From contig JAAUTY010000005.1 of assembly GCA_012031265.1 (NCBI GenBank), positions 1 through 64,000 on the forward strand: a DNA stretch of 64,000 nt. The letters are read 5' to 3'. Every line of letters starts with the position of its first letter. The first letter of the stretch is position 1. The notes beneath the pieces were generated by a model. That model had not been told where the DNA came from and did not search any database. It worked only from the letters and a program-made list of their open reading frames with translations. Of the stretch, positions 5,055-63,257 are shown one piece after another. The translations under genes were made by a program, and so were the position numbers. This stretch comes from Spirulinaceae cyanobacterium SM2_1_0. GTDB lineage: Bacteria > Cyanobacteriota > Cyanobacteriia > Cyanobacteriales > Spirulinaceae.

Positions 5055-7115
5055 CTATGCTGTGGCGGTCAGTTTTCTAGAGGCATCCCTCGCTGCATCA
5101 CTCATGCCCGCCTTGATGTTCCTGATTGGCAGCACAATTTTGAACCATGTGCCTCGCCCGCGCACGGAGTCACACTGCAACTGCCCGTTGTGGAATTCAG
5201 TCACGATCTGATAGCTAATCGATAATCCCAAACCTGTTCCCTGACCCGTTGGTTTAGTGGTAAAAAATGGCTCAAAAATCTTCGACAAAATTTTCTCGGA
5301 GATACCGACGCCATTATCACCAATCGTAATGCTGACCTGCTCGGCATTGAGCACCTCAGTGATGATCTGAATCTGAGGTTGCCAGCCTGCTTGTGGGTTG
5401 CGTTCGTCATCCCGCAAAGCATCAATGCTATTGCTCAATAAGTTCATGAATACCTGATTTAGTTGACCGGCTGCACAATCAACGAGGGGTAATAAGCCAT
5501 ATTTTTTAACCACTAAAATCTCAGGTTGGTTGCCGGTAGCTTTGAGGCGGTGTCTCAAAATCGTCAGGGTGCTCTCCAAGCCTTCATGCAGATCAGTTTG
5601 TTTCAAATCAACTTCATCCAGACGTGAGAAATTTCGCATCGATACGACCAATTCTTGAATGCGGCTCGCTCCCATGCGCATGGAGTCGATGATTTTGGGG
5701 AAGTCTTCAATCAAGAAATCAAGCTCGATGTCTTCAGAATATTTCTCAATTTCCGGGATGGCTGCTGGGAAGAATTCTTGATAGAGTCGGAGAAGCTGGA
5801 TCAGGCTCCGACTGTATTCCAAAGCATAGCCAGTATTGCCATAGATGAAACTGACGGGATTATTAATTTCGTGGGCAATCCCGGCGACGAGTTGACCTAG
5901 ACCCGACATCTTCTCGGCATGAACAAGGCGTGATTGGGTTTGCATGAGCTGTTTCAGCGTTTGTTCAGCCTGTTCTTTCTGGCTTTTGAGCTGTATGGAT
6001 GACTGGGTCAGCGCCTTGACCAATTCAGCCTGCTGGTGGCGATGTCTGAGGCTGTTGGCGAGGTAAAGGCTCAACAGAATGGTGCTGAGGGTACCGATGG
6101 CTAAAGCACTGGCGGCTCGCCAGGGGCGATCGCCAAAACTCGCATCGGGCAACACTAAAATCGACCATTCACCATCAACCCAGTTCAAACTCCGTAGACA
6201 GGCGAGGTGCTGGCGGTCGAAGGGGCAGACGGAAGCCTTGGCGGCGATTGGTGGCGATTGGTCAGAAAAGGTATCGCGGGCATAGCGGGTCAGGAGTTCC
6301 GCTTGCAGGGAATCGAGATCCTTGGAGAGGGCAGAATCGAGGTAGTCAAGCGGGAGTTGGTAGAGATAGATGCGGAGTGCGCCGCTATTGGTCTCGCGGA
6401 CGGCCTGGCGAATCAGGGTTTGGCTGGGCAGAACGGTGTAGGCGACACCAGTCAATGCTTGCTGACGTTCGGCGAGTGAAGTTACCTCAAGCGAGCGATA
6501 GACCGGGACATAGAGGAGGAAGCCGTTGGTCTCGCCGTCGGTCAACTGGACGCGGTCGGTCGCCGCCAGAATGCCGATGTCACGGGCCTTGGCGATCGCC
6601 GCCTGTCGCTGCCAATCACTCCCATGGTCGAATCCCAATTCTCCCTCAGCGACCCGCTCCGGCACAAACTGGGTGGTCAGGAAATATTCGCCATCGCTTT
6701 CAGGCACAAGGGTCTGCCGATCGCCATCCTCACTCAGTAGCCAGGCCGTGTCTACGGCTGACACATCAGCGGCGGTGAAACGCTGGGCGAAGCCTGCACC
6801 CGCGAGGACATCGGCGTCACGGAGCACTTGACTGGTGAAGCGCTCGAATTGCTCACGGCTGAGGTTAGTTTCAATGCTGTAGAGTCCGGCGAGCGATCGC
6901 GAAGCCTGTACCGAGCGGTCGAGTCGATTTTGGAGGGCGGCTTGCAGGGCATTGGCTTGGCGCTCAAATTGTTCGGCGCGGCCGGAGCGCTCCCAGCGAT
7001 AGATCCAGGCAGCAGCAGTGAAGGATAGGGAAAGACCGACAGCGAGAGCAGTCCCGACTACAAGACTGCCGCGCTTGAGTGCGAGAGGACGAAGGAAACG
7101 CAAGGGGGACTCCAT
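5055..7115 (-). CDS. CHASE-domain sensor histidine kinase
   Basis: Membrane-bound sensor kinase of 686 residues. A first membrane helix (about residues 16-39) and a second (about 337-358) enclose an extracytoplasmic CHASE-type sensor region. A coiled coil with LMQTQSRLVHAEKMSGLGQL leads to the phosphoacceptor His near residue 414 in GIAHEINNP. The ATPase domain has the N-box region NQVFMNLLSNSIDAL, the G1 box DNGVGI, FEPFFTTKPTGQGTGLGLS and a C-terminal LPIRN. The kinase core is close to that of the six-PAS kinase at 29245-32610. No receiver gene is co-directional, so the partner is unknown. Start at MESPLRFLRPL places the first helix correctly. Confidence 0.9.
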   Translation of the reverse strand: MESPLRFLRPLALKRGSLVVGTALAVGLSLSFTAAAWIYRWERSGRAEQFERQANALQAALQNRLDRSVQASRSLAGLYSIETNLSREQFERFTSQVLRDADVLAGAGFAQRFTAADVSAVDTAWLLSEDGDRQTLVPESDGEYFLTTQFVPERVAEGELGFDHGSDWQRQAAIAKARDIGILAATDRVQLTDGETNGFLLYVPVYRSLEVTSLAERQQALTGVAYTVLPSQTLIRQAVRETNSGALRIYLYQLPLDYLDSALSKDLDSLQAELLTRYARDTFSDQSPPIAAKASVCPFDRQHLACLRSLNWVDGEWSILVLPDASFGDRPWRAASALAIGTLSTILLSLYLANSLRHRHQQAELVKALTQSSIQLKSQKEQAEQTLKQLMQTQSRLVHAEKMSGLGQLVAGIAHEINNPVSFIYGNTGYALEYSRSLIQLLRLYQEFFPAAIPEIEKYSEDIELDFLIEDFPKIIDSMRMGASRIQELVVSMRNFSRLDEVDLKQTDLHEGLESTLTILRHRLKATGNQPEILVVKKYGLLPLVDCAAGQLNQVFMNLLSNSIDALRDDERNPQAGWQPQIQIITEVLNAEQVSITIGDNGVGISEKILSKIFEPFFTTKPTGQGTGLGLSISYQIVTEFHNGQLQCDSVRGRGTWFKIVLPIRNIKAGMSDAARDASRKLTATA

Positions 7116-29244: not shown

Positions 29245-32200
29245 ATGCCCGAATCCACTGTGACGCTCGACGTGATCGCCTACGACACGCTGCAACAGGA
29301 GTTGGCGGCACTACGCCAAAATCTACAAGCTTGTGAAGCGCGATTGGCGATCGCATCAGTTCATGATCGCCAGTCCTCCCCGCCTCAGGCAGTCCCCACA
29401 CTCACCCTCGAGTCGGCACGCCGTTTCCAGCGCCTCGCTGACAATGGCATGGGGACACTTTACCAATTCCGCCTCGAGCCCAATGGTTCTGTGTGGTTCC
29501 CCTACATCTCACTGGGTTGTCGGGCGCTGACCGGACTGGAGCCAGAGGCGATCTTGCAGGATGTCTCTCGCTTCATCGACTTGATTCATCCCGAGGAGAG
29601 CGATCGCTTCCAAGCCTCCATCACGCATTCAGCCGCCACCCTAGAACCCTGGTACTGGGAAGGGCGCTTGTTACTCCCCGACGGAACCGTCAAGTGGTTC
29701 AAGGCCGAATCGCGTCCCGAACGGCTCCCCGATGACGCAATCGTTTGGGATGGCTGGATCTTGGACATTACCTCCTACCGACAGACCGCTGAGCGCCTGC
29801 AAGTGACGAATGAGCGGATCGCCACGATTATCGAAGGAACCGGCGATGCTTTTTTTGCCTTAGATCGGGACTGGCGCTTTACCTATGCCAACCATCGCAC
29901 TGAGCGACTGCTGGGAAAACCCAAACCTGAGTTGATGGGGCAAAATATTTGGACGCTCTTTCCTGAGGCCATAGGCTCGGTTTTCTACGAGCAGTATCAC
30001 CATGCGGTCGAACAATCTGAACCAGTTGTTTTTGAGGAATACTATCCGCCTCTTGATGTCTGGTTTGAGGTGCGGGCTTATCCAGTTCATGGCGAGTTGT
30101 TTATTTACTTCACAGATATTAATGATCGCAAACAACTCGAAGCCCGCGTCGCCGAACGCACGGCAGAGATTGAGCGTACTACCGCTCAGCTACAGGCAAT
30201 TTTGGACAATGCGCCAGCCGTGATCTATGTCAAAGATCCAGAAGGGCGCTTCATATTAGTCAACCGTCAGTTTGAGCAGCTTCTACATCTGACTCAAGCC
30301 GAGATTATTGGGCGCTCCCATCACGAGCTATTTCCTCAAGAAGTTGCCGACACCTTCCAAATCAGTGACCAAGAAGTCCTGACCGAAAATAAGGTGGTTG
30401 CCCTAGAGGAAGTTACTTCCCGCGAGGACGGACTGCATACTTACGTGTCATCTAAATTCCCCCTCCTAGACGAAAATGGTCAGCCCTATGCCGTCTGTGG
30501 CATCTCCACCGACATCACCGAGCGTCAGCGAGCTGAAGCCCAGTTGCAAGCGACTCTGTCACTTCAGGAGGCGCTCTTCAATGGCATCGATTACATGATC
30601 ATGTCCGTTGACACTGGAGGCATCATTCGCAGCTTCAATGCAGCGGCTGAACGGATGACCGGCTACAGAGCGACTGAAGTGGTCGGACAGGCGAGTCCAG
30701 CGCTAGTCCATGATCCGGCTGAGCTTGTTCAGCGTACTGCTGAACTCAGTGCCAAGTTGGGGATTGAGATCGAACCCGGTCTTGAGACTTTCTTCGCGAA
30801 CGCTCGGCGCGGTCAGCGAGACGAATGCGAGTGGACGTTGATCCGCAAGGATGGCAGCCGTTTCCCGGCGCTCGTGACCATTGCTGCTTTGCGAAATGAA
30901 GCCGACGAAATCACGGGTATTGTCGGTATTGCTCAGGACATCACCGAGCGTAAGCAAGCCCAGGAAACCCAGCGCAAATTGGCGGCACTGGTCGAAAACA
31001 GTAGTGACTTTATCGGCATTGCTGACTTAGAAGGTCGCGCTCAGTATCTCAATCCTGCCGGTCGTCGTTTAGTGGGTTTGCCTCGCGAGGCTGACATAAA
31101 AGAGCACACGATGCTGGACTTTGTCCCGGCTGAATATGCACCAACGTTTGAGCGTGAAGTCCTAGCAACCGTAATCGAAACCGGGACTTGGCAGGGCGAA
31201 TCCCATCTCCATCACTTTGAGACCGGAGAGACAATGGAGGTGGAGAAGAATCTCTTTACCGTGACGAATCCGGAGACGAATGAGCTGCTTTGTTTCGCGA
31301 CCGTCACGCGCGACATTCGCGATCGCAAGCAAGCCGAAGCGGAGTTGCGGGCAGCGAAAGAAGAGTTGGAAAGCTTCTTCATACTGGCGCTGGATCTACT
31401 CTGCATTGCTGATACTAGCGGTCATTTCTTGCGCCTCAATCGCGCCTGGGAAGACGTACTGGGCTACTCCATTGATGAGTTGAGTAATGCCGTCTTCTTG
31501 GATTTTGTCCACCCTGACGATCTAGAATCAACGCTAGCGGCGGTCAGTATTTTGGCTGAACAGAAGACTGTGGTGAGCTTCGTCAACCGCTATCGCCATA
31601 AAGATGGCAGCTATCGTTATATTGAGTGGCGCTCTTCTCCATACGGCGATCTGATCTATGCCGCTGCGCGAGACATCACTGAGCGTCAGGAAGCCGAGTT
31701 GCAACTCCAGCAGCAGAAGCGCGAGTTGGAGAATACCTTGTATGAGCTGCGGGCGACTCAGGGTCATTTGGTTCAGAGCGAGAAAATGTCCAGCCTCGGT
31801 CAATTGGTAGCGGGCATTGCGCATGAGATCAATAATCCTGTCAACTTTATCTACGGCAACCTCGTTCACACCCGCGAGTACACCGAGAACTTGCTAGAAA
31901 TTGTTGGTGCTTACCAAGAGCAGTACCCCGAGCCGCCGGAGGACTTACAGGAAATAGCAGAAGACATCGATCTCGAATTTGTGATGACCGACTTCCCGCG
32001 CCTGCTCGACTCGATGAAAATCGGCGCGCAACGCATCCGCGAGATCGTTACGTCGCTGCGAACCTTCTCGCGTCTGGACGAGGCGGACTGCAAGCAGGCC
32101 AATGTCCATGAGGGGATCGATAGCACGTTGCTGATTCTGCAAAATCGCCTCAAAGCGAAGTCGGATCGGCCTGAGATTGCGGTCATCAAGGACTACGGAT

Positions 32201-32610
32201 CGCTATCCGATGCTGAATGCTATCCCAGCCAGCTCAACCAGGTGTTTATGAACATCTTGGCGAATGCGATCGATGCGCTGGAGGAGCGGGATGAGCAGCG
32301 GACCACTGCTGAGAAGAAGGAAAATCCCAGCCAAATCTGGATCACGACGGCTGAGGAACAGCCGAGTTGGCTGACGGTTCGCATCCGGGATAATGGGCCG
32401 GGAATTAGTGAGACGGTGCGCGATCGCCTTTTCGATCCTTTCTTCACCACTAAGGCGACGGGCAAAGGAACTGGTCTCGGGATGTCGATCAGCTACCAGA
32501 TCATCACCGAGCGCCACGGCGGCAAATTGACTTGTACTTCCGAGCTGGGGCAAGGCGCTGAGTTTGTCATCTCGATTCCGGTTCACCAGCAAGCGGCTAC
32601 GACCGATTGA
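29245..32610 (+). CDS. Soluble sensor histidine kinase with six PAS-type domains
   Basis: A 1121-residue kinase without membrane helices. Six PAS/PAC units are visible; most end with a PAC signature such as WDGWILDITSYRQ, YFTDINDRKQLEARV, VCGISTDITERQRAE, IVGIAQDITERKQAQ, FATVTRDIRDRKQAE and IYAAARDITERQEAE. A short coiled coil (QKRELENTLYELRATQGHLV) leads to the phosphoacceptor His near residue 859 in GIAHEINNP. The ATPase has NQVFMNILANAIDALEERDE, RDNGPGIS and GTGLGMSIS. Stacked PAS domains suggest redox, light or small-ligand input. The kinase core closely resembles the CHASE kinase at 5055-7115. No receiver is adjacent. A terminator follows. Confidence 0.93.
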   Translation: MPESTVTLDVIAYDTLQQELAALRQNLQACEARLAIASVHDRQSSPPQAVPTLTLESARRFQRLADNGMGTLYQFRLEPNGSVWFPYISLGCRALTGLEPEAILQDVSRFIDLIHPEESDRFQASITHSAATLEPWYWEGRLLLPDGTVKWFKAESRPERLPDDAIVWDGWILDITSYRQTAERLQVTNERIATIIEGTGDAFFALDRDWRFTYANHRTERLLGKPKPELMGQNIWTLFPEAIGSVFYEQYHHAVEQSEPVVFEEYYPPLDVWFEVRAYPVHGELFIYFTDINDRKQLEARVAERTAEIERTTAQLQAILDNAPAVIYVKDPEGRFILVNRQFEQLLHLTQAEIIGRSHHELFPQEVADTFQISDQEVLTENKVVALEEVTSREDGLHTYVSSKFPLLDENGQPYAVCGISTDITERQRAEAQLQATLSLQEALFNGIDYMIMSVDTGGIIRSFNAAAERMTGYRATEVVGQASPALVHDPAELVQRTAELSAKLGIEIEPGLETFFANARRGQRDECEWTLIRKDGSRFPALVTIAALRNEADEITGIVGIAQDITERKQAQETQRKLAALVENSSDFIGIADLEGRAQYLNPAGRRLVGLPREADIKEHTMLDFVPAEYAPTFEREVLATVIETGTWQGESHLHHFETGETMEVEKNLFTVTNPETNELLCFATVTRDIRDRKQAEAELRAAKEELESFFILALDLLCIADTSGHFLRLNRAWEDVLGYSIDELSNAVFLDFVHPDDLESTLAAVSILAEQKTVVSFVNRYRHKDGSYRYIEWRSSPYGDLIYAAARDITERQEAELQLQQQKRELENTLYELRATQGHLVQSEKMSSLGQLVAGIAHEINNPVNFIYGNLVHTREYTENLLEIVGAYQEQYPEPPEDLQEIAEDIDLEFVMTDFPRLLDSMKIGAQRIREIVTSLRTFSRLDEADCKQANVHEGIDSTLLILQNRLKAKSDRPEIAVIKDYGSLSDAECYPSQLNQVFMNILANAIDALEERDEQRTTAEKKENPSQIWITTAEEQPSWLTVRIRDNGPGISETVRDRLFDPFFTTKATGKGTGLGMSISYQIITERHGGKLTCTSELGQGAEFVISIPVHQQAATTD

Positions 32611-54769: not shown

Positions 54770-57700
54770 GTGAGTCAGACTTCGCCCCCAACTCTCAAGC
54801 CTTGGCACCTCGGCCTCGCCGGTTTTGGTCTCCTCGCCGCTGGACTGGGCGATCGCCCGCTCCAAGCCCAACCGATCATCCCCGCCGGGGATGGCACGGG
54901 AACCGTCGTGATTCCGAATGGCGATCGCTTCGACATCCTCGGCGGCACGCTCTCGGGCGACGGCGCGAATTTGTTTCACAGCTTTCAACAATTCGGCCTC
55001 AGCGCTGACCAAATCGCCAACTTCCTCGCCACGCCCGCCCTGCAAAACATCCTGGGGCGCGTGGTCGGCGGCGACCCCTCAATGATCAATGGCTTGATCC
55101 AGCTTTCGGGGGGAAATGCCAATCTCTACCTGATGAATCCGGCCGGGATTGTTTTTGGGCCCAATGCCAGCCTGAATGTCCCCAGCGACTTTTTCGCCAC
55201 AACTGCGACGGGGATCGGCTTTAGCAACGGCGCTTGGCTCGAGGCCTTTGGTACCAACGACTATCACAATCTCGTCGGCACGCCGAACCAATTTGGCTTC
55301 GATGGCGTGACGGCAGGCGCGATTGTGAATGCCGGCAATCTCAGCGTCAATCCCGGTCAGCACTTAGCGCTGATCGGCGGCCAGATCGCCAACACCGGCG
55401 AATTGAGCGCCCCTGGCGGTCAGATCACCATCAGCGCCGTACCGGGCAGCAGCCGTGTCAAGTTCTCGCAGCCCGGACACCTGCTGAGTCTGGAGATCGA
55501 GCCACCCCGCGCCACCGATGGTAGCCCGCTGCCGATCACGCCGCAGGACATCCCCGCACTGTTGACGAGCAGTGGCTGGGATATGGGTCTGGTTGCAAGC
55601 CCAGAAAACACGGTCGAGTTTAGTGCTAGCGGTCACTCGGTTCCCTTGGGAGAGGCGACGGCAGCGATCGCCGGTCGTCTGGATGTCAGCAATGCCGACG
55701 GAACCGGCGGCGACATCGCCGTAGTCGGTGACAAGGTGGCGCTGCTCGCGGCCGAGCTAGAGGCTTCCGGTCTGACGGGCGGCGGCAACATCCGCATCGG
55801 CGGCGAGTATCGGGGCAGTGAAGGTTTACCGACAGCTAGCCGCACCTATGTCAGCAGCGGCAGCCAATTGCGTGCCGACGCGCTAGAAGTGGGTGATGGC
55901 GGTCGCGTCATTCTCTGGGCGGATGAAGTGACCGGTTTCTTCGGCGACATCAGCGCCCGGGGCGGCGAGCTGGGCGGTGATGGCGGTTTTGTGGAAGTGT
56001 CGGGCAAGGAATCGCTCGCCTTCAACGGTCTGGTGGATGTCAGCGCGCCACTAGGGGCAGACGGCGACATCTTGCTCGATCCCCGCAACATCATCATCGG
56101 CAACACCGGCACGCATGACAGCCATCTGGGCGATAACCAAATCTTGGCCGGCGACGGTACTCCTAGCCAGACCTTCGAGATTTCCGTCGCGACGCTGGCA
56201 GCACTGTCAGGAACGGTGACCCTAGAGGCAACACATCAAATCACCTTCAGCGAAGCCGTCACCTTTCCCAGCTACATTGACTTGATTGTCAATGGGCAGA
56301 ATGTGGATATTAACGCGGCGATCGCCTTCAACAATGCCGCCAGCCAATTCACGATCAATGCGGGGCAAACCATCGACATTCGGGCCGACATTAGCGGCGC
56401 GCAACTGTTGGATTTTAATGCCGGTGACTATATCAATATCTTCGATACCGCCACCGTCAGCGCCAATACGATCGACTTCTACGCCCAAAATCAACAGGTG
56501 GATGTTGAGGGCACGCTGAACGGCAGCAATATTTACCTGTCATCCGATTTCTTGATTGATATTGACGATGGCGGTGTGATTTCCGGGGATAATGTCGTCC
56601 TCACAGGGCCAAGCTATATTTTGTTCAACGATGGCTCTGTTTTGGATTCTGGTAATGTCACCTTGATCAGTGACGATATTGCCATTTGGAATGGCAGCTC
56701 ATTTAACGGCAATGGCAGCCTGAACATTGAACCCTACACACCCAGCCCCGGTACCGACCTCGCTGACATTCTCAATCACATCGGCCTGAGCAGTAGCGAA
56801 TTCGATAGCTTGCTCAACGGCTTCGATACAGTCACCGTGGACGGGATCACAGTCAAAGCACCGCCAGTTGAGCCACCGCCACCAGTTGAGCCACCGCCAC
56901 CAGTTGAGCCACCGCCACCAGTTGAGCCACCACCCGTGACGCCGCCGCCGGTCGTGGAGCCGATCACGCCGATCGAAGGCGGCGAGCCAGTGACGGTCAG
57001 CAACGAAGGCCGATTGGAAATGGCCAACACGCGCGCTTCGGTCGAACAAGCCCTCGATAGCGGTGATGCCGGGGTAGCGGCGCAAGCCCTGGACGGTCAC
57101 TTTAGCAATGCCTTTGCCGAGCAGCTCGGTCGCGGTGATCAGCCGGAGGTGTCAGTCTCTGAGTTTCAGCGCCGCTTGCAGCAGTTGGCGGCGAAAACGG
57201 GCACGAGTCCTGCCGCAATCTATGTTTTCGCCCGTGCTGAGCAACTGGAGCTGATCTTGGTGCCGACGGCGGGTGAGCCGATGCAATACAGTGTCCCCGG
57301 CGCAACGGCTGCGCAAGTCCGTGCCCAAGTGCGCGAGTTGCAAAACGAAGTGGTTGATCCGACCCGCCGCCGCACGACCTCCTATCTGTCCTCGGCGCAG
57401 CAGCTCGACGACTGGATCATGGCACCACTCCAGGCCGATTTGCAGCGACTGGGGGTTGATACCTTGCTGTTCAGCTTGGATGAAGGGTTGCGATCGCTCC
57501 CCCTCGCGGTTCTCCATGACGGTGAGCAATTCCTGCTGGAACGCTACCGCTTCAGCGTGATTCCTAGCCTGTCGCTGGCGAAGCTCAACTACACCGACGT
57601 GCGTAATGCCGATGTGCTGGCGATGGGGATGTCTGAGTTTCAGTACCTGAATCCCCTGCCAGCGGTACCAACGGAACTCGCGGCGATCGCTCAGCAGTCG

Positions 57701-58273
57701 CCCGGACGCAAGGCGATCCTCAACGACGGCTTCACGGTGGCGAATCTAAAAGCACAACGCCAGCAGACGCAAGCGCCGGTAGTCCATTTGGCGACTCATG
57801 CGGAATTCATGCCCGACGAGCAGGGTGGCTCCTTCATCCAGTTCTGGGAGCAGTCGTTGGCGTTTGAACAGATGGCTGGTCTGGACTGGAGTGATCCCGA
57901 ACTGGCGCTGCTGGTGCTGAGTGCTTGTCGCACGGCGCTCGGTGATACCACGGCTGAATATGGCTTTGCGGGTCTGGCGGTGCAGTCGGGGGTGGACACG
58001 GCGATCGCCAGTCTCTGGTATGCCAATGATGTCGGCACGCTGGGGCTGATGAGCGAGTTCTACCACCAACTCAGCCGCACGCCGCTCAAATCCGAAGCCT
58101 TGCGGCAGGCACAAATCGCCCTGCTGCGGGGTGAGTTGCGTGTGGAAGCGGGTCATGTGGTCGGCAACTTCGGTAGCGTCGATCTGCCAGCCGACCTAGA
58201 ATCCATTAATATCGAGACCTTCCAGCACCCGTACTACTGGTCGGGGTTCTCGGCGATCGGCAACCCCTGGTAG
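54770..58273 (+). CDS. Secreted haemagglutinin-type (TpsA) protein fused to a CHAT protease domain
   Basis: A 1167-residue protein starting at GTG 54770. A signal peptide (GLAGFGLLAAGLGDRPLQAQ) precedes a two-partner-secretion domain with NLFHSFQQFGLSADQIANFL and YLMNPAGIVFGPNASLNVPS. A beta-helix-type repeat region runs to about residue 690, followed by a linker with four PVEPPP units (701-724). The C-terminal CHAT (caspase-like) domain covers about residues 850-1160, with the catalytic His in HLATHAEF (about 1005) and Cys in LSACRTALGD (about 1052), plus FAGLAVQSGVDTAIASLWYA. No TpsB transporter gene is in the window. The CHASE2 kinase gene follows 94 bp downstream on the same strand. Confidence 0.9.
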   Translation: MSQTSPPTLKPWHLGLAGFGLLAAGLGDRPLQAQPIIPAGDGTGTVVIPNGDRFDILGGTLSGDGANLFHSFQQFGLSADQIANFLATPALQNILGRVVGGDPSMINGLIQLSGGNANLYLMNPAGIVFGPNASLNVPSDFFATTATGIGFSNGAWLEAFGTNDYHNLVGTPNQFGFDGVTAGAIVNAGNLSVNPGQHLALIGGQIANTGELSAPGGQITISAVPGSSRVKFSQPGHLLSLEIEPPRATDGSPLPITPQDIPALLTSSGWDMGLVASPENTVEFSASGHSVPLGEATAAIAGRLDVSNADGTGGDIAVVGDKVALLAAELEASGLTGGGNIRIGGEYRGSEGLPTASRTYVSSGSQLRADALEVGDGGRVILWADEVTGFFGDISARGGELGGDGGFVEVSGKESLAFNGLVDVSAPLGADGDILLDPRNIIIGNTGTHDSHLGDNQILAGDGTPSQTFEISVATLAALSGTVTLEATHQITFSEAVTFPSYIDLIVNGQNVDINAAIAFNNAASQFTINAGQTIDIRADISGAQLLDFNAGDYINIFDTATVSANTIDFYAQNQQVDVEGTLNGSNIYLSSDFLIDIDDGGVISGDNVVLTGPSYILFNDGSVLDSGNVTLISDDIAIWNGSSFNGNGSLNIEPYTPSPGTDLADILNHIGLSSSEFDSLLNGFDTVTVDGITVKAPPVEPPPPVEPPPPVEPPPPVEPPPVTPPPVVEPITPIEGGEPVTVSNEGRLEMANTRASVEQALDSGDAGVAAQALDGHFSNAFAEQLGRGDQPEVSVSEFQRRLQQLAAKTGTSPAAIYVFARAEQLELILVPTAGEPMQYSVPGATAAQVRAQVRELQNEVVDPTRRRTTSYLSSAQQLDDWIMAPLQADLQRLGVDTLLFSLDEGLRSLPLAVLHDGEQFLLERYRFSVIPSLSLAKLNYTDVRNADVLAMGMSEFQYLNPLPAVPTELAAIAQQSPGRKAILNDGFTVANLKAQRQQTQAPVVHLATHAEFMPDEQGGSFIQFWEQSLAFEQMAGLDWSDPELALLVLSACRTALGDTTAEYGFAGLAVQSGVDTAIASLWYANDVGTLGLMSEFYHQLSRTPLKSEALRQAQIALLRGELRVEAGHVVGNFGSVDLPADLESINIETFQHPYYWSGFSAIGNPW
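56864..56935 (+). repeat. 18-nt tandem repeat, four units, encoding PVEPPP
   Basis: CCAGTTGAGCCACCGCCA is repeated four times (the last copy with changes) in the linker between the secretion/beta-helix part and the CHAT domain. Copy changes keep the frame. Confidence 0.9.
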
Positions 58274-58367
58274 CGGGGGCAAGCCCCGCAGCCACGTGCT
58301 AAAACTGAGGTTAAGCCGCGTTGACACCAATGCCAGTGCGGTGGCTAGCCGGTCACCGCCCAATTCT

Positions 58368-60653
58368 ATGCCGCACCCTCTTGTCGCTTGGTTCCGCGAT
58401 CGCGCCCGCACCCGCTGGCGGGGTGCCGCCGTGGTGCTCGCCACAACCAGCGGTGTACTGCTGCTCCGCGTCCTGGGTCTACTGCAACTGCTGGAACTCG
58501 CCGCCTACGACCAGCTCGTCCGTGCCCGACCGACCCAACCCTCTGACCCACGCATCGCCATCGTCGGCATCACCGAAAACGATGTCCGCCGCTACAACTG
58601 GCCACTGAACGATGCGGTCATGGCGGAATTGCTGAGCACCATTCAAGCCCAGGAACCGATCGCGGTCGGTCTGGACATCTACCGCGACCTGCCTGTCGAA
58701 CCGGGACATGCGGACTTGGTGGCGGTGATGCGCTCAATGCCAAATCTGATCGGCATTACCAAAGTGGCGGGTCAGAATCCTGACGCAGAAGAATTCGACG
58801 CCGCGGGCAATGAAGGCATCATCGCGCCGCCGCCCGTGCTCGCGGAGCTGGGGCAAATCAGCGCCAATGACCTGCCCCTCGATCCCGATGGCAAAGTCCG
58901 CCGCAACTTCCTCTACCTCAGCGATCCCGACAGCAACATTGTCCTTGGCTTCGGCTTTCGCCTAGCGATGATCTATCTTGACACCCTCGGCATCGCGCCT
59001 GACAACGAGGGCGATGATCCCACGCGCATCGAATTGGGCGAGGCCGTCTTTCATCCCCTGAAGCGCAATGATGGCGGCTACGTGCGCGTAGATGCGGCCG
59101 GCTACCAAATGATGCTCAACTATCGCGGCTCCCAAGGCACCTTTGACAAGGTGTCGGTGTCGGACGTGCTCGACGGGAATATTGAGCCGGATCATTTTCG
59201 CGATCGCATCGTCATGATCGGCTCCACCGCTACCAGCCTCAAGGATTTTGAGATCGCTCCTTACGCCAGCCGCGTGATCGGCGAACCGGAAAACATGAGC
59301 GGCGTTGAGATCCACGCCAATATCGTCAGTGGGCTGGTGGATGCCGCGACGGGCGATCGCCGCCGCATGGTAGTTTTACCCAGCGGCCTGGAATGGCTGT
59401 GGATTGGTGCTTGGGCGCTCATCGGGACAAGCTGGCACGCCAAAAATATCTGGGCGGCCCTGCGTCGGGCCTCGTTGGGCACTAGTCTCGCGACCGGTGG
59501 TTTACTGTTGGGGGTCTACCTCGCCTTTCTCAGTTACTGGTGGCTGCCCGCTGTCCCGGCGCTGATGGCACTCTGGAGCGCCGCCCTGGGCAAGAGTGGC
59601 TGGTTGCTGGTTCAACATCTACGCCAGTCTTATCAAGAACTTGAAGACTATGCTCACACCCTAGAGATTCGGGTTGAGGAGCGTACTTACGAACTGCGGG
59701 TCAAAAATGAGGAACTCGAAACCGCCCTCGCCCAAGTCAAGGCGGCTCAGAAACAACTGATCGCCCAAGAAAAGCTCGCCTCCCTCGGTTCGCTGACGGC
59801 TGGCATCGCTCACGAAATTCGCAACCCGTTGAATTTTGTCAACAACTTTGCGCAAATCGCCGTGGAACTCGTCGATGAAATGGACGAAGAGCTGAAGGGC
59901 GATGCCGAACCGACGGCAGCGATTGCGGATGTGCAGTTTATGCTGACCGATTTCCGCGAATGCACGGCGGCGATCCAACAGAACGGTCAGCGCATCGATC
60001 GCATCGTCAATGGGATGCTGATGCACGCCCGCGAGGAGCGCGGTTCGCCGGAGTCGGTCGATTTGAACGTCCTCGTCCAGAATGCGCTTCAGTTGGTCTA
60101 TCACAACCGCGAGGAGCAAATCGATGCAGCGGGGGTTCAGTTCGACTCTGATTACGACGCGGCGATTGGCTCGATTGAGGTGATTGCCAAAGACTTGGAT
60201 AAATCCCTGCTCTGCATTTTGAATAATGCCTTTGATGCGGTAATCGCCCAACAGCAAGCCAGCGACACGACCTATCAGCCCCAGGTTCGGGTGACGACTG
60301 AGAATACTGGCGATCGCGTCACGATCCGCGTCCATGACAACGGCGTTGGCATCGCTGCTGATCAACTAGACAAAATTTTTGAGCCGTTTTACACCACGAA
60401 GACCGGCGGCGAAAGTACGGGTCTCAGTCTTTCCCTGGCCTATGAGGCGATCGCTTCCCTGCATCAGGGTGAATTGAATGTCGATTCCAAACCGGGCGAG
60501 TTCACCGAGTTCGCGATCATCTTGCCCCGCGAGCAGTCCCTGCTAGCGACCCCCACAGCGGCTGAACTCGCCCTAGTCGATATGGAAGTAGGAGATGAGG
60601 GGGATGAGGATGAGGAAGACACCGCCGTCGCCTTAGCGAGTGAAGTGTTTTAG
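58368..60653 (+). CDS. CHASE2-domain sensor histidine kinase
   Basis: A 761-residue kinase. An N-terminal membrane helix (VLATTSGVLLLRVLGLLQLL) precedes a periplasmic CHASE2 sensor (about residues 35-330, with RPTQPSDPRIAIVGITENDV, GKVRRNFLYL and HFRDRIVMIGSTATSLKD). Two or three membrane helices follow (about 350-425), then a coiled coil. HisKA has GSLTAGIAHEIRNPLNFVNN (His near 481). The ATPase has LCILNNAFDAVIAQQQ, VHDNGVGI and FEPFYTTKTGGESTGLSLSL. The tail is acidic (DEGDEDEEDTA). CHASE2 proteins are often encoded next to CHAT or haemagglutinin-type genes in cyanobacteria, as here. ATG at 58368 is preferred over a GTG at 58296. Confidence 0.92.
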   Translation: MPHPLVAWFRDRARTRWRGAAVVLATTSGVLLLRVLGLLQLLELAAYDQLVRARPTQPSDPRIAIVGITENDVRRYNWPLNDAVMAELLSTIQAQEPIAVGLDIYRDLPVEPGHADLVAVMRSMPNLIGITKVAGQNPDAEEFDAAGNEGIIAPPPVLAELGQISANDLPLDPDGKVRRNFLYLSDPDSNIVLGFGFRLAMIYLDTLGIAPDNEGDDPTRIELGEAVFHPLKRNDGGYVRVDAAGYQMMLNYRGSQGTFDKVSVSDVLDGNIEPDHFRDRIVMIGSTATSLKDFEIAPYASRVIGEPENMSGVEIHANIVSGLVDAATGDRRRMVVLPSGLEWLWIGAWALIGTSWHAKNIWAALRRASLGTSLATGGLLLGVYLAFLSYWWLPAVPALMALWSAALGKSGWLLVQHLRQSYQELEDYAHTLEIRVEERTYELRVKNEELETALAQVKAAQKQLIAQEKLASLGSLTAGIAHEIRNPLNFVNNFAQIAVELVDEMDEELKGDAEPTAAIADVQFMLTDFRECTAAIQQNGQRIDRIVNGMLMHAREERGSPESVDLNVLVQNALQLVYHNREEQIDAAGVQFDSDYDAAIGSIEVIAKDLDKSLLCILNNAFDAVIAQQQASDTTYQPQVRVTTENTGDRVTIRVHDNGVGIAADQLDKIFEPFYTTKTGGESTGLSLSLAYEAIASLHQGELNVDSKPGEFTEFAIILPREQSLLATPTAAELALVDMEVGDEGDEDEEDTAVALASEVF

Positions 60654-60658
60654 GCCCG

Positions 60659-61012
60659 CTAACGTCGCCGACCGCGCCGGAACAGCCTGGAAAATGGCAG
60701 CTTAATTCGACCTTTGGGCGATCGCTGCTCACGGATCCGCCGCTGGCGCTGCGCGGCCTCGATGCCAGGAACGCCCGAGTGCGTGGTCGTCCGGTCGAGC
60801 CGACGGTGCTTGCCCCAGCGGTGCTGCGGCGGCTCCGGATCGGGGTTGTTTAACCAGGACATCGACCAGCCTGCCGCAATACCACCCAGTGCTCCTAAGG
60901 TCAGCGCCAAGAAGACGCTATGACCCATCAACACCAGCGCGAATAGGAAGAATAACCAGAAGCCAAAACCAATCGAGGTAGCGCTACGCCAACGCGGCAG
61001 TGGTTTTGTCAT
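60659..61012 (-). CDS. Small membrane protein of unknown function
   Basis: A 117-residue protein. Two hydrophobic stretches (IGFGFWLFFLFALVLMGHSV and FLALTLGALGGIAAGWSMSW) form a helical hairpin, followed by a basic, proline-containing cytosolic tail (RRLDRTTTHSG, RRIREQRSPKGRIKL, LFRRGRRR). ATG at 61012 (MTKPLPRWRSATS) is preferred over 61039. It converges with the CHASE2 kinase with 5 nt between stop codons. No family recognised beyond general similarity to cyanobacterial hypotheticals. Confidence 0.72.
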   Translation of the reverse strand: MTKPLPRWRSATSIGFGFWLFFLFALVLMGHSVFLALTLGALGGIAAGWSMSWLNNPDPEPPQHRWGKHRRLDRTTTHSGVPGIEAAQRQRRIREQRSPKGRIKLPFSRLFRRGRRR

Positions 61013-61178
61013 GAGCAATGGTGGCTTGGTCGCGATCACTGCTCAAATTGTAAGCTGGTCATCAGTCCCAGCCGCGATCGCCGCCCTTGACCATGAGATG
61101 CCCGTCGCAGTGTAGGATGAGGGGCAATGCGCCGTGATCGCCGCAACGCTGGCGCTGAACCTCGTTCTACGCTCACCC

Positions 61179-63257
61179 ATGCTTGCCTTCTACATCGATC
61201 CCGTCAGAGGGACAGACAGTGGCGTCGGCAGCCGCAGCGCGCCATTCAAAACCCTGACCCACGCCCTCGCCCAAGCTCGCCCCGGCATCTCTCTCCAGTT
61301 GGCACCCGGAACCTACCACGCCGCCAGTGGCGAACAATTTCCGCTCGTCGTCCCTGCTGGCGTGATCGTCATGGGGACGGAGGCGGGCGATGGCAAAACG
61401 GTGCTGCTCTTAGGCAGCGGCACTCACCAAAGTCCGACGCTGCAAGCTCAGAATGTCACTCTCGTCGCCAGCGATGGTGCTCAACTACGCGGTCTGACGG
61501 TTCGCAACTCAGTCACCAAAGGCGTCGGCGTCTGGGTCGAGTCGCAGTTACCGCTGCTATCCCACTTGACGATCAGCCAGTGCAAGCTCGCGGGCATCTT
61601 TGTCACCGGTGATGCCAAGGTGCTGATCCGTGACTGTCGCGTGGTTGACAACGCCGCTAGTGGCATTCTCTTTGGGCGCAATGCCAAGGGCGAAGTGCGG
61701 CGGAGTCACTGTGATCGCAATGGCTATGGCATTGTCTGTGGCGATCGCGCCGCGCCGCTCTGCATCGACAATCAGTTGCGCGATAACGATACCGGCTTCT
61801 TTCTATCCCGCGAGACCAAGCCGGTACTGCGCCGTAATTTAATCGCCGGTAGCCACAAACATGGGCTACTGGCGAAGGATCGCGCCCAACCCGACCTCGG
61901 CAGTGCTCAAGACCCGGCACTGAATATTTTTCGGGAGGGTCGCGGGGTGGAATTGGTCAACGAGACGCTCCTCAAGCTCGTCGTTGCGGGCAACGAACTC
62001 AACCCCGCCCGGACTCAGGGCGAGATCGAGCTGGTGACGGTGATCGTCGATCAGCCCGCCCTCGGCCCCACTCAGTTTCGTGACATCGATGGTCACTGGG
62101 CCGCAGATTTTATCAATGCGCTGGCCAGCCAGGGGCTGATTCGCGGCTTTCCCAATGGCAACTTCCAGCCAGAAGGGTCGTTGACACGCGCTGAGTATGC
62201 CGCTCTGATCGCGCAGAGCTTCGATCTGCCGCGCCAACTCGGTACGCGCGGCAGCTTCAGCGATGTGCCGGAGTCCTTCTGGGGGGCGACGGCGATCGCC
62301 AAAGCGGCGGCGATGGGTTTCATTGCCGGTTTCGGTGACGGGACCTTTCGCCCCCAGCGCAACTTGACGCGCGTGCAGGCGATCGCCTCGCTGATTGGCG
62401 GCCTGGGCCTGACGGGCGGTGTGCCAGACTTGCTGCTGTTCTATCGCGATCGCGCCGCCATCCCCAGCTATGCCGTGAATGCCGTGGCGATCGCCACTCA
62501 GCACCGCCTAGTGGTGAATCACCCCGAACTGGATCAACTCGAACCCAACCGCGACATCAACCGCGCCGAAATCACCGCGTTCCTCTACCAAGCCCTCGTC
62601 GCTACCCAGCGCACCCCTACTCTAGCCTCGCCCTACATCGTCAGCCCTGATCGCTACCTGCCCAGCTTCAGCGACATGACCGCGCATTGGGCCAACGACT
62701 TCATCCGCCGCCTCGCCAGCGCCAATCTCGTCAGCGGTTTTGCCGACGGCAGCTTCCAGCCCGACGCCCCAATCAATCGCGCCCAGTATGCGGCGCTGCT
62801 TGTGAAGGCACTCAACCCAGCTCCGCTGCGTCCTCCGGCGCGCTTTCTGGATGTGCCCAGTGATTTTTGGGGGGCGGCAGCGATCGACCAGGCCTACCAA
62901 GCGGGCTATCTGTCCGGCTTTCCCGACGGCACTTTTCACCCTGAGCAACAGTTAAAGCGGGTTCACCTGATTCTCTCGCTGGCGAATGGTCTGAAATTGC
63001 CCGCCGCTGAGTTGGCAACGCTGACTCTGTATCGCGATCGCGATGCCATCCCGGCCTATGCTGAAGGGGCGATCGCCGCTGCTACCCAAGCCAGAATCGT
63101 CGTCAGCTACCCCGATTCTCGCCAGCTTCAGCCCCGCGAAAATGCCAGCCGCGCTGACGCCGCCGCGATGGTCTACCAGACCCTCGCCTACCAGGGTCAA
63201 ATCAGCCACCTCAATTCGGCCTACATCGCTGGCGAACTAGAGCCGGTCAGTACTTGA
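61179..63257 (+). CDS. DUF1565 (beta-helix) protein with six SLH motifs
   Basis: A 692-residue protein. The N-terminal DUF1565 domain reads MLAFYIDPVRGTDSGVGSRS, APFKTLTHALAQARPGISLQ and LAPGTYHA, continuing as a right-handed beta-helix (QCKLAGIFVTGDAKVLIRDC and similar). From about residue 300 two sets of three SLH motifs follow, for example FRDIDGHWAADFINALASQG and FSDMTAHWANDFIRRLASAN. SLH motifs tie proteins to the cell wall or outer-membrane-linked polymers. ATG at 61179 is chosen because DUF1565 normally begins with FYVNPxxGxD; a GTG at 61134 would add 15 residues that could be a short leader. Confidence 0.88.
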   Translation: MLAFYIDPVRGTDSGVGSRSAPFKTLTHALAQARPGISLQLAPGTYHAASGEQFPLVVPAGVIVMGTEAGDGKTVLLLGSGTHQSPTLQAQNVTLVASDGAQLRGLTVRNSVTKGVGVWVESQLPLLSHLTISQCKLAGIFVTGDAKVLIRDCRVVDNAASGILFGRNAKGEVRRSHCDRNGYGIVCGDRAAPLCIDNQLRDNDTGFFLSRETKPVLRRNLIAGSHKHGLLAKDRAQPDLGSAQDPALNIFREGRGVELVNETLLKLVVAGNELNPARTQGEIELVTVIVDQPALGPTQFRDIDGHWAADFINALASQGLIRGFPNGNFQPEGSLTRAEYAALIAQSFDLPRQLGTRGSFSDVPESFWGATAIAKAAAMGFIAGFGDGTFRPQRNLTRVQAIASLIGGLGLTGGVPDLLLFYRDRAAIPSYAVNAVAIATQHRLVVNHPELDQLEPNRDINRAEITAFLYQALVATQRTPTLASPYIVSPDRYLPSFSDMTAHWANDFIRRLASANLVSGFADGSFQPDAPINRAQYAALLVKALNPAPLRPPARFLDVPSDFWGAAAIDQAYQAGYLSGFPDGTFHPEQQLKRVHLILSLANGLKLPAAELATLTLYRDRDAIPAYAEGAIAAATQARIVVSYPDSRQLQPRENASRADAAAMVYQTLAYQGQISHLNSAYIAGELEPVST

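Follow-up and report, generated by a model that had tools for sequence, protein, structure and literature searches.

Near one end of the window, that is, the whole 64,000-nt stretch of cyanobacterial DNA analysed, a gene for a predicted exported protein carrying a caspase-like CHAT domain is followed on the same strand by a gene for a CHASE2 histidine kinase, which raises the question of whether the two belong to one system and what such a system might do. Taken together, an adhesin-like, putatively exported caspase-like protein and an envelope-facing membrane sensor that are repeatedly co-inherited point to an undescribed surface-protein control or signalling system, and we found no published description of the TPS-CHAT module. 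The analysis established the domain content of this module, its linkage beyond chance, its co-inheritance in the sampled genomes and the retention of its catalytic residues, as detailed below.

Architecture of the two genes and their surroundings

The first gene (54770–58273, + strand; open reading frame list and Pfam) encodes 1167 aa from a GTG start. Its signal-peptide-like N-terminus (aa 1–33, 54770–54868), with the top hydrophobic 12-mer at aa 16–27 and an LQA-Q cleavage site recognized by eye, precedes a TPS secretion domain (aa 46–237, 54905–55480; PF05860, E = 1.6e-43; TIGR01901, E = 2e-22) containing an NPAG motif at aa 123. The protein thus has the make-up of a TpsA exoprotein, a TPS domain with NPxG behind a signal-like N-terminus, the latter judged by eye and hydropathy. 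The following stretch (aa 238–697, 55481–56860) gave no Pfam match and is probably a beta-helix, to judge from its composition and the TPS family. A Pro-rich hinge (aa 698–737, 56861–56980), with four PVEPPP units from aa 699, then leads to the CHAT domain (aa 875–1165, 57392–58264; PF12770, E = 3.5e-61), which carries the motifs HLATH at aa 1006 and LSAC at aa 1050; beyond TPS and CHAT, no Pfam family was matched in the protein at E ≤ 0.001. His1006, His1010 and Cys1053, presumably the CHAT catalytic residues, were kept in 41/41, 39/41 and 40/41, respectively, of the aligned CHAT domains left after removal of duplicates, contained and short domains, and all three were present in 16/16 of the TPS-fused CHAT domains. 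A single-sequence structure model of the CHAT region reached a pLDDT of 34.8, which is too low, and was not used; the CHAT alignment found no CHAT structure among PDB sequences, giving one chance match to an endoglucanase (E 0.06), and the region had no match in viral contigs. Apart from the signal being assigned by eye, the Pfam and motif searches bear out the first-pass annotation, which had read a signal peptide, TPS domain, PVEPPP hinge and CHAT domain with His and Cys in one protein.

The second gene (58296–60653, + strand) encodes 785 aa from GTG 58296, with an alternative ATG at 58368. Hydrophobic 19-mers (≥ 1.4) were located at aa 42–72, 215–234, 358–376 and 393–427, and the protein has the features of a CHASE2 histidine kinase: a CHASE2 sensor domain between hydrophobic segments (aa 53–377, 58452–59426; PF05226, E = 1.1e-61), then HisKA (aa 497–582, H-box HEIRNP at aa 506) and HATPase_c (aa 641–746), both from Pfam and together spanning 59784–60533. 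The gap after the TPS-CHAT gene is 22 bp from the GTG and 94 bp from the ATG, the latter being the same-strand distance originally reported.

A DUF1565-SLH protein, previously suggested as a further partner, is indeed encoded downstream at 61134–63257 (Pfam; DUF1565, E = 7.7e-32; SLH, E = 1.2e-60), but a DUF1565 profile built from it found no other match in the loci searched in relatives and the window's own genome, and it was rejected as part of the module; the small gene in between (60659–61039, − strand) was likewise dropped. The TpsB had been expected elsewhere in the genome, and five ShlB (TpsB) matches over the cut-off lie on contigs C103, C119, C31, C91 and C140, with two further matches under the cut-off and none on the window's contig, C133. 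TPS, CHAT and CHASE2 are together at the window locus; DUF928 and a receiver-kinase, which accompany them in relatives, are absent there, none of the genome's eight DUF928 matches being on C133.

Conservation and co-inheritance of the pair

Kinase orthologues were defined by a score of at least 482 bits (next best match, 439), considering eight first-look candidates per genome with E ≤ 1e-100 only. Alignment A1 includes 12 orthologues at 43–48% identity. The conservation check proposed with the first-pass annotation was run and the pair survived it: a CHAT gene adjoins the kinase orthologue in 12 of the 21 genomes having that kinase, comprising 10/10 in two other families and 2/11 in the window's family. 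Ten of these 12 have both genes on the same strand and two are divergent with DUF928 in between; in three (G096, G048 and G058) the gene is truncated by a contig end ahead of TPS, leaving CHAT alone visible. The full order DUF928 > TPS-CHAT > CHASE2 kinase > receiver-kinase was found in five genomes (G032, G079, G088, G120 and G070), whereas the operon is partly inverted in G020 and G104, and G007 is without the receiver-kinase. Of the 12 paired genomes, 10 have a receiver-kinase next to the CHASE2 kinase. This common order recurs across several genera belonging to two families, and in a third family without its last gene; by comparison with it, the window pair looks like a remnant of the four-gene operon.

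Within the window's family, the CHAT and kinase genes are apart in 9 of the 11 kinase genomes, counting G002, where no more than some 1 kb of upstream sequence is on the contig. In four of these nine (G001, G002, G006 and G010), a PAS-type hybrid kinase stands opposite DUF928/TPS-CHAT in place of the CHASE2 kinase. A scan of genome contigs with the kinase alignment used patterns that lay within the histidine-kinase core and gave matches from many phyla, and its 80 loci were set aside.

Trees were built from TPS-fused CHAT rows and the best-scoring matches, some of the latter being subject to a profile-score threshold, and excluded the CHAT proteins that split modules encode separately (see below) and genomes with only weaker matches; nine rows were dropped from one alignment as too distant, partial or duplicate, and L051 was restored from a re-fetched contig. 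All 25 rows of the window's group came from kinase genomes, and 0 of the 27 rows from kinase-less genomes fell inside it. Support for the group was moderate (88/79 in this tree, 93/89 in another). It has a member in 20 of the 21 kinase genomes, including G048, whose CHAT end matches that of G070 exactly. The TPS-CHAT and CHASE2 kinase genes appear to be co-inherited even where separated, in the genomes sampled. The linkage and co-inheritance of these predicted proteins favour the earlier proposal that an envelope-facing CHAT protein is tied to a periplasmic CHASE2 sensor. In a kinase tree limited to 13 orthologues, from before the full orthologue scoring, the paired state was not clustered beyond chance (three changes; 126/500 shuffles as low). 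Pro-rich stretches were also common in the group: of its 21 TPS-CHAT proteins examined, 18 contain a 40-residue segment with eight or more prolines somewhere from residue 250 to the last 300 residues, not in every case immediately before CHAT.

CHASE2 neighbourhoods and alternative explanations

Across six relatives, DUF928 was found within 2 kb of CHASE2 in 29 of 63 CHASE2 matches (0.46 expected) and TPS within 10 kb in 20 (2.8 expected), the expectations assuming uniform gene placement and rounded genome sizes. Among the matches listed, with CHAT represented by the first 136 rows of its own list, DUF928, TPS and CHAT all lay within 10 kb in at least 17 of the 63 and none of the three in 26. 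TPS within 2 kb of CHASE2 was not above chance in the six genomes (2/63, 0.76 expected), and direct TPS-CHASE2 adjacency was dropped as the basic link. Large families could in principle meet at random, given that the window genome has 33 CHAT, 15 TPS and 11 CHASE2 matches and that none of its other fetched CHASE2 loci has TPS-CHAT directly beside CHASE2; against the 10-kb TPS and 2-kb DUF928 excesses and an operon order kept across families, a chance neighbourhood is scarcely credible.

A split form, TPS > CHAT > DUF928 > CHASE2 kinase, was found at L102, L107, L259 and L260. All 14 split CHAT proteins examined have a hydrophobic stretch early in the chain and lack any TPS match, so they should stop in the periplasm, alongside CHASE2 and DUF928. 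Similar exported genes lie beside CHASE2 proteins of varied output, namely kinases (L102, L107 and L260), cyclases (L093, L094 and L096), a CHASE2-GGDEF protein (L109) and CHASE2 proteins with an N-terminal CHAT (L095, L097–L100, L108 and L110); L092 combines TPS and DUF928 with a CHASE2 cyclase, but no CHAT lies within the stretch shown. This recurrence with other CHASE2 outputs, as well as DUF928 and the receiver-kinase, had been missed in the first-pass annotation.

Two-component genes are often neighbours of genes under their control, and the pair might reflect plain local regulation, in which the CHASE2 kinase senses an unrelated cue (an ion, a nutrient or a stress) and controls transcription of a surface-protein operon, CHAT being a structural or maturation domain that is not sensed. 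The receiver-kinase following in 10/12 paired genomes and the different kinase type in the four family members would suit this explanation, as would a Synechocystis DUF928 protein that, according to the available part of PMC5587647, responds to acid stress. However, no action on an adjacent promoter is expected of cyclase, diguanylate cyclase and CHAT-CHASE2 outputs, and their presence beside similar exported sets therefore argues against it, as does co-inheritance that survives separation of the genes; we consider local regulation possible but rather unlikely. Programmed death, raised originally together with Craspase and gasdermin systems, would make CHAT a surface-delivered toxin or contact-triggered death protease, with the kinase as the sensor, in an envelope-facing conflict module. 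CHAT domains serve as effectors in conflict systems, and CHASE2 is among the variable C-terminal domains of such networks, according to excerpts of PMC10907252 and PMC8195603, respectively, and the sheer number of CHAT matches in the window genome would also be in keeping. But neither a Cas7-11-type nor a gasdermin partner, nor any Cas family, was recognized by Pfam in the seven window proteins or the scanned locus genes of relatives, where an immunity gene could escape recognition, and the proposed kinship with those systems found no backing. CHAT is itself equipped with a TPS or signal sequence, the sets occur across families, and second-messenger enzymes make up several of the outputs; a death function is unsupported and a conflict module improbable.

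A putative envelope module and its known counterparts

Our preferred reading, held tentatively and at a little under even confidence, is by analogy with the CdrA/LapG system: an envelope module in which CHAT, with DUF928, cuts or gates the release of a TPS surface protein, while CHASE2 reads the resulting state. Its parts would be a TPS surface protein, an exported caspase-like CHAT protease, an exported DUF928 protein, an inner-membrane CHASE2 receptor and an exchangeable cytosolic output, and the two window genes would be what this locus retains. A TpsB would take the N-terminal TPS/beta-helix part to the cell surface, and the C-terminal CHAT, behind the Pro-rich hinge, would remain or pause in the periplasm, where together with DUF928 it may cut the surface part or gate its release. 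CHASE2 would sense bound CHAT, DUF928 or a cleavage product, and its state would set the kinase output to the neighbouring receiver-kinase, where present.

A bolder reading, which we regard as doubtful though worth stating, is that the exported cassette (TPS, caspase-like protease and DUF928) is the natural CHASE2 input in a modular cyanobacterial transenvelope receptor system of a new kind. Surface contact or shedding would lead to periplasmic proteolysis and a CHASE2 signal, and lineages would differ in the output joined to CHASE2, be it a kinase, a nucleotide cyclase or diguanylate cyclase, or an additional caspase-like domain located in the cytosol. The available text of PMC10581220 gives the CHASE2 input, or ligand, as unknown; if true, this reading would supply that long-missing input. 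The exported genes are candidate partners for the CHASE2 sensor domain, and since a conserved operon names three exported partners, the CHASE2 input becomes a testable question.

Among known systems, the envelope module would resemble CdrA/LapG, with a TPS-secreted surface protein, a protease in the periplasm and control from inside, all proposed here by analogy. LapG is a Cys protease. In Pseudomonas aeruginosa, the tail of the TPS adhesin is cut by a protease in the periplasm, which c-di-GMP governs from the cell interior (PMC5422565, in part), and one relative here has a GGDEF output. At the window locus, however, Pfam gives neither a LapG-family protease nor a LapD receptor: the protease domain is CHAT (PF12770), which is either part of the TPS protein or encoded alongside it; CHASE2 (PF05226) is the receptor domain, and in relatives DUF928 is added. 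The exoprotein also resembles FhaB/FHA, having a signal peptide, TPS with NPxG, a long middle and a C-terminal domain, and the FhaB prodomain stays intracellular, as worded in a title within the reference list of PMC5422565; here the C-terminal position is taken by a CHAT protease domain, and TpsB is not on the same contig. CdiBAI likewise has a large TPS-delivered protein with a distinct C-terminal domain, which here is CHAT, and contig C133 has no ShlB match that could be an adjacent CdiB; immunity genes vary too widely for recognition, and the gene directly after the exoprotein is the kinase. Craspase TPR-CHAT is a CHAT protease, and it and HetF share with the window protein PF12770 with conserved His and Cys; HetF is described in part of PMC8406250 as a membrane protein that combines CHAT, TPR and TM parts, whereas here CHAT is exported with a TPS domain and no Cas partner is seen. 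One CHASE2-DUF928 neighbourhood is already published, from Nostoc punctiforme (our reading of the name NOSP7), where the two genes are close together as in the relatives here; the accessible part of PMC5587647 reports it only in that species among seven surveyed cyanobacteria, and names WD40 proteins there and neither TPS nor CHAT. Leptolyngbya Dgc2 (CHASE2-PAS-GGDEF), in the passages available from PMC10581220, also has an extracytoplasmic CHASE2, whereas here named exported partners are inherited along with the CHASE2 receptor.

The TPS-CHAT and CHASE2 kinase genes

The TPS-CHAT gene (54770-58273, + strand) is an open reading frame of 1167 residues. Its product starts with a signal-like sequence, followed by a TPS domain (residues 46-237, Pfam), an extended central region, a hinge of PVEPPP units (residues 698-737) and, at the C-terminus, a CHAT domain (residues 875-1165, Pfam). 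The CHASE2 histidine kinase ORF (58296-60653, + strand) has an alternative start at ATG 58368, from which a distance of 94 bp between the two genes is counted, in agreement with the first-pass annotation. In an alignment of CHAT domains, His1006 was kept in 41/41, His1010 in 39/41 and Cys1053 in 40/41, and all three, which we take to be the residues expected for catalysis, were present in the 16/16 CHAT domains fused to TPS. Between the kinase and SLH genes, 60659-61039 (− strand) encodes a short basic polypeptide that includes a hydrophobic stretch and that neither Pfam nor NCBIfam recognised at E ≤ 0.001. Outside the window, some 7.6 kb away (locus L078, 11638-15681), lies a divergent 1347-aa CHAT protein in which, by the CHAT alignment, the second His and the Cys are absent; it is possibly inactive.

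Linkage and co-inheritance of the kinase and CHAT genes

Profile searches of the window genome, a draft of 5.03 Mb judged cyanobacterial from its genes, returned 33 CHAT, 15 TPS and 11 CHASE2 matches, and a chance neighbourhood therefore needed to be excluded. Kinase orthologues (≥482 bits; best match below the gap, 439 bits) were gathered from 39 relatives, the window genome counted in, and from 120 genomes of the order, the two sets partly overlapping, and were found, set apart by this score gap, in 21 genomes. The CHAT gene was the kinase neighbour in 12 of the 21, so that the gene pair proposed earlier is conserved: it lies directly upstream on the same strand in ten genomes (G000, the window's own, G007, G032, G079, G096, G058, G088, G120, G048 and G070), and in G020 and G104 the two genes diverge on either side of DUF928. 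All 10 kinase genomes of families f9 and f21 were paired, as were 2/11 of the window's family (f1).

Five relatives (G032, G079, G088, G120 and G070) share the order DUF928, TPS-CHAT, CHASE2 kinase and a receiver-HisKA-HATPase protein of ~416 residues. G096, G048 and G058 match this operon from CHAT onward, a contig end before the TPS domain leaving the CHAT part alone visible; G020 and G104 have all of its genes with one half inverted, and G007 lacks the final receiver-kinase gene. Pfam confirmed the receiver-kinase gene in 8/10 genomes; in G096 and G048 it was assigned from the kinase profile only. Since DUF928 and the receiver-kinase, both present in the relatives' operon, are absent at the window locus, the window pair looks like a shortened relic. 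Elsewhere in the window, kinase cores at 31720-32583 (+) and 5121-5981 (−), both parts of larger ORFs, are 50-52 % identical to the operon-ending receiver-kinase.

A kinase tree was built from 13 orthologues and three outside kinases. In it the paired G032 and G020 branch off first, and the other eleven form a fork, without resolution, of G007 (paired), G005 with G009 (unpaired) and a set of eight, in which the window kinase groups with seven unpaired orthologues (support 81/83). Pairing requires three changes on this tree, possibly a single gain with two losses; 126/500 shuffles did as well, and the kinase tree alone is thus no proof of ancestral linkage. Ancestral linkage is nevertheless favoured, because pairing holds in 10/10 genomes from the two outer families.

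The CHAT tree comprised 58 rows chosen as best matches, genomes having weaker matches alone not being placed. A group of 25 rows (support 88/79; 93/89 in a tree with fewer rows) contained the window protein, four more copies from its genome and rows from other kinase genomes. The 27 rows taken from genomes lacking a kinase orthologue all fell outside it, including the four fetched from G004 and five from G008, both of the window's family, and six further rows from kinase genomes were paralogues outside it. Counting G048, whose CHAT end is identical to that of G070, 20/21 kinase genomes have a group member; none was found in G011 (82 % complete), whose two fetched TPS-CHAT proteins fall elsewhere. 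The kinase and the TPS-CHAT group are probably used together, because within this sample they were kept in the same genomes after the linkage broke.

Wider CHASE2 neighbourhoods

Matches to CHASE2 (63), TPS and DUF928 and strong matches to CHAT were compared in six better-assembled relatives. Within 2 kb of CHASE2 lay DUF928 in 29/63 (expected 0.46), CHAT in at least 14/63 among the strong matches listed (expected 1.46) and TPS in just 2/63 (expected 0.76); within 10 kb, TPS was found in 20/63 (expected 2.8). All three lay within 10 kb in at least 17/63, and none of them, among the CHAT matches listed, in 26/63. TPS, CHAT, DUF928 and CHASE2 kinase occur as separate genes at four loci (L102, L107, L259 and L260), and a similar set stands beside a CHASE2 with nucleotide cyclase output at three (L093, L094 and L096), L092 being such a cyclase set without CHAT in the stretch seen. 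The CHASE2 output is GGDEF at L109. An N-terminal CHAT joined to CHASE2, the CHAT-like half being a second kind of CHASE2 output, was found at L095 (with an added cyclase domain), L097-L100, L108 and L110, with a DUF1822-group gene close by in 6/7 (one group member Pfam-confirmed). In many CHAT-CHASE2 loci the neighbours include DUF928, DUF1822 and an unnamed conserved gene. The window genome has such proteins on contigs C98 (L069), C11 (L070) and C119 (L071), called from the shared open frame of both matches, C11 being Pfam-confirmed. On its contig C28 (L064, 5352-13613), separate TPS and CHAT ORFs that overlap slightly lie next to a copy in which the two are fused, and may have arisen when the fusion split recently; on C78 (L068), the TPS part is spread over two frames.

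Probable compartment, proposed mechanism and known systems

An early hydrophobic stretch was present in 14/14 separate CHAT proteins examined (in two with uncertain start codons, it falls at residue 67 or 79) and the TPS profile matched none of these 14, which argues that separate CHAT proteins should end in the periplasm, the space that CHASE2 also faces. DUF928 proteins begin, as judged by eye, with signal-like sequences. Domain content, gene linkage, residue conservation and, within the sample, co-inheritance are observed, and from there we infer the compartment, cleavage, sensing and phosphotransfer of a candidate module: CHAT would cut or gate the release of the TPS part, DUF928 would be an exported helper or ligand, and CHASE2 would read the state of the TPS/CHAT/DUF928 assembly. 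The chief alternative is local regulation of the ordinary kind, in which a neighbouring kinase controls a surface gene. Four members of the window's family (G001, G002, G006 and G010; loci L192, L195, L196 and L202) have, in place of the CHASE2 kinase, a PAS-type hybrid kinase divergent to DUF928/TPS-CHAT, a possible sensor exchange that is compatible with either reading. Because the exported genes recur while the CHASE2 output is exchanged, we propose that they are the input of CHASE2 and not just its target.

The component families are all known, and their combination appears to be the new part. No description of TPS-CHAT proteins with CHASE2 or DUF928 was found in the literature searched, outside which most subscription papers lie, and priority is not certain. 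CHASE2 and DUF928 are reported to share one five-gene cluster with two WD40 proteins in NOSP7, a code read as Nostoc punctiforme, alone among seven species (PMC5587647); CHASE2 is noted in a Trichodesmium metacaspase (PMC2853523), CHASE2 ligands are described as unknown (PMC10581220), and Hmw1B-type TpsB proteins are reported in many cyanobacteria (PMC4104836).

The proposed release resembles that of CdrA by LapG, in which a protease under cell-interior control cuts the periplasmic end of a TPS surface protein (PMC5422565). A Pro-rich stretch (8 or more Pro within 40 residues) was found in 18/21 TPS-CHAT proteins of the group, in some of them several hundred residues before CHAT. The fused form is likened to CdrA, whose tail is reported to stay in the periplasm, and to FhaB, whose tail is called 'intracellular' in a reference title there (PMC5422565); by analogy with such a held-back C-terminal tail, the CHAT end behind the Pro-rich stretch would stay or pause in the periplasm.
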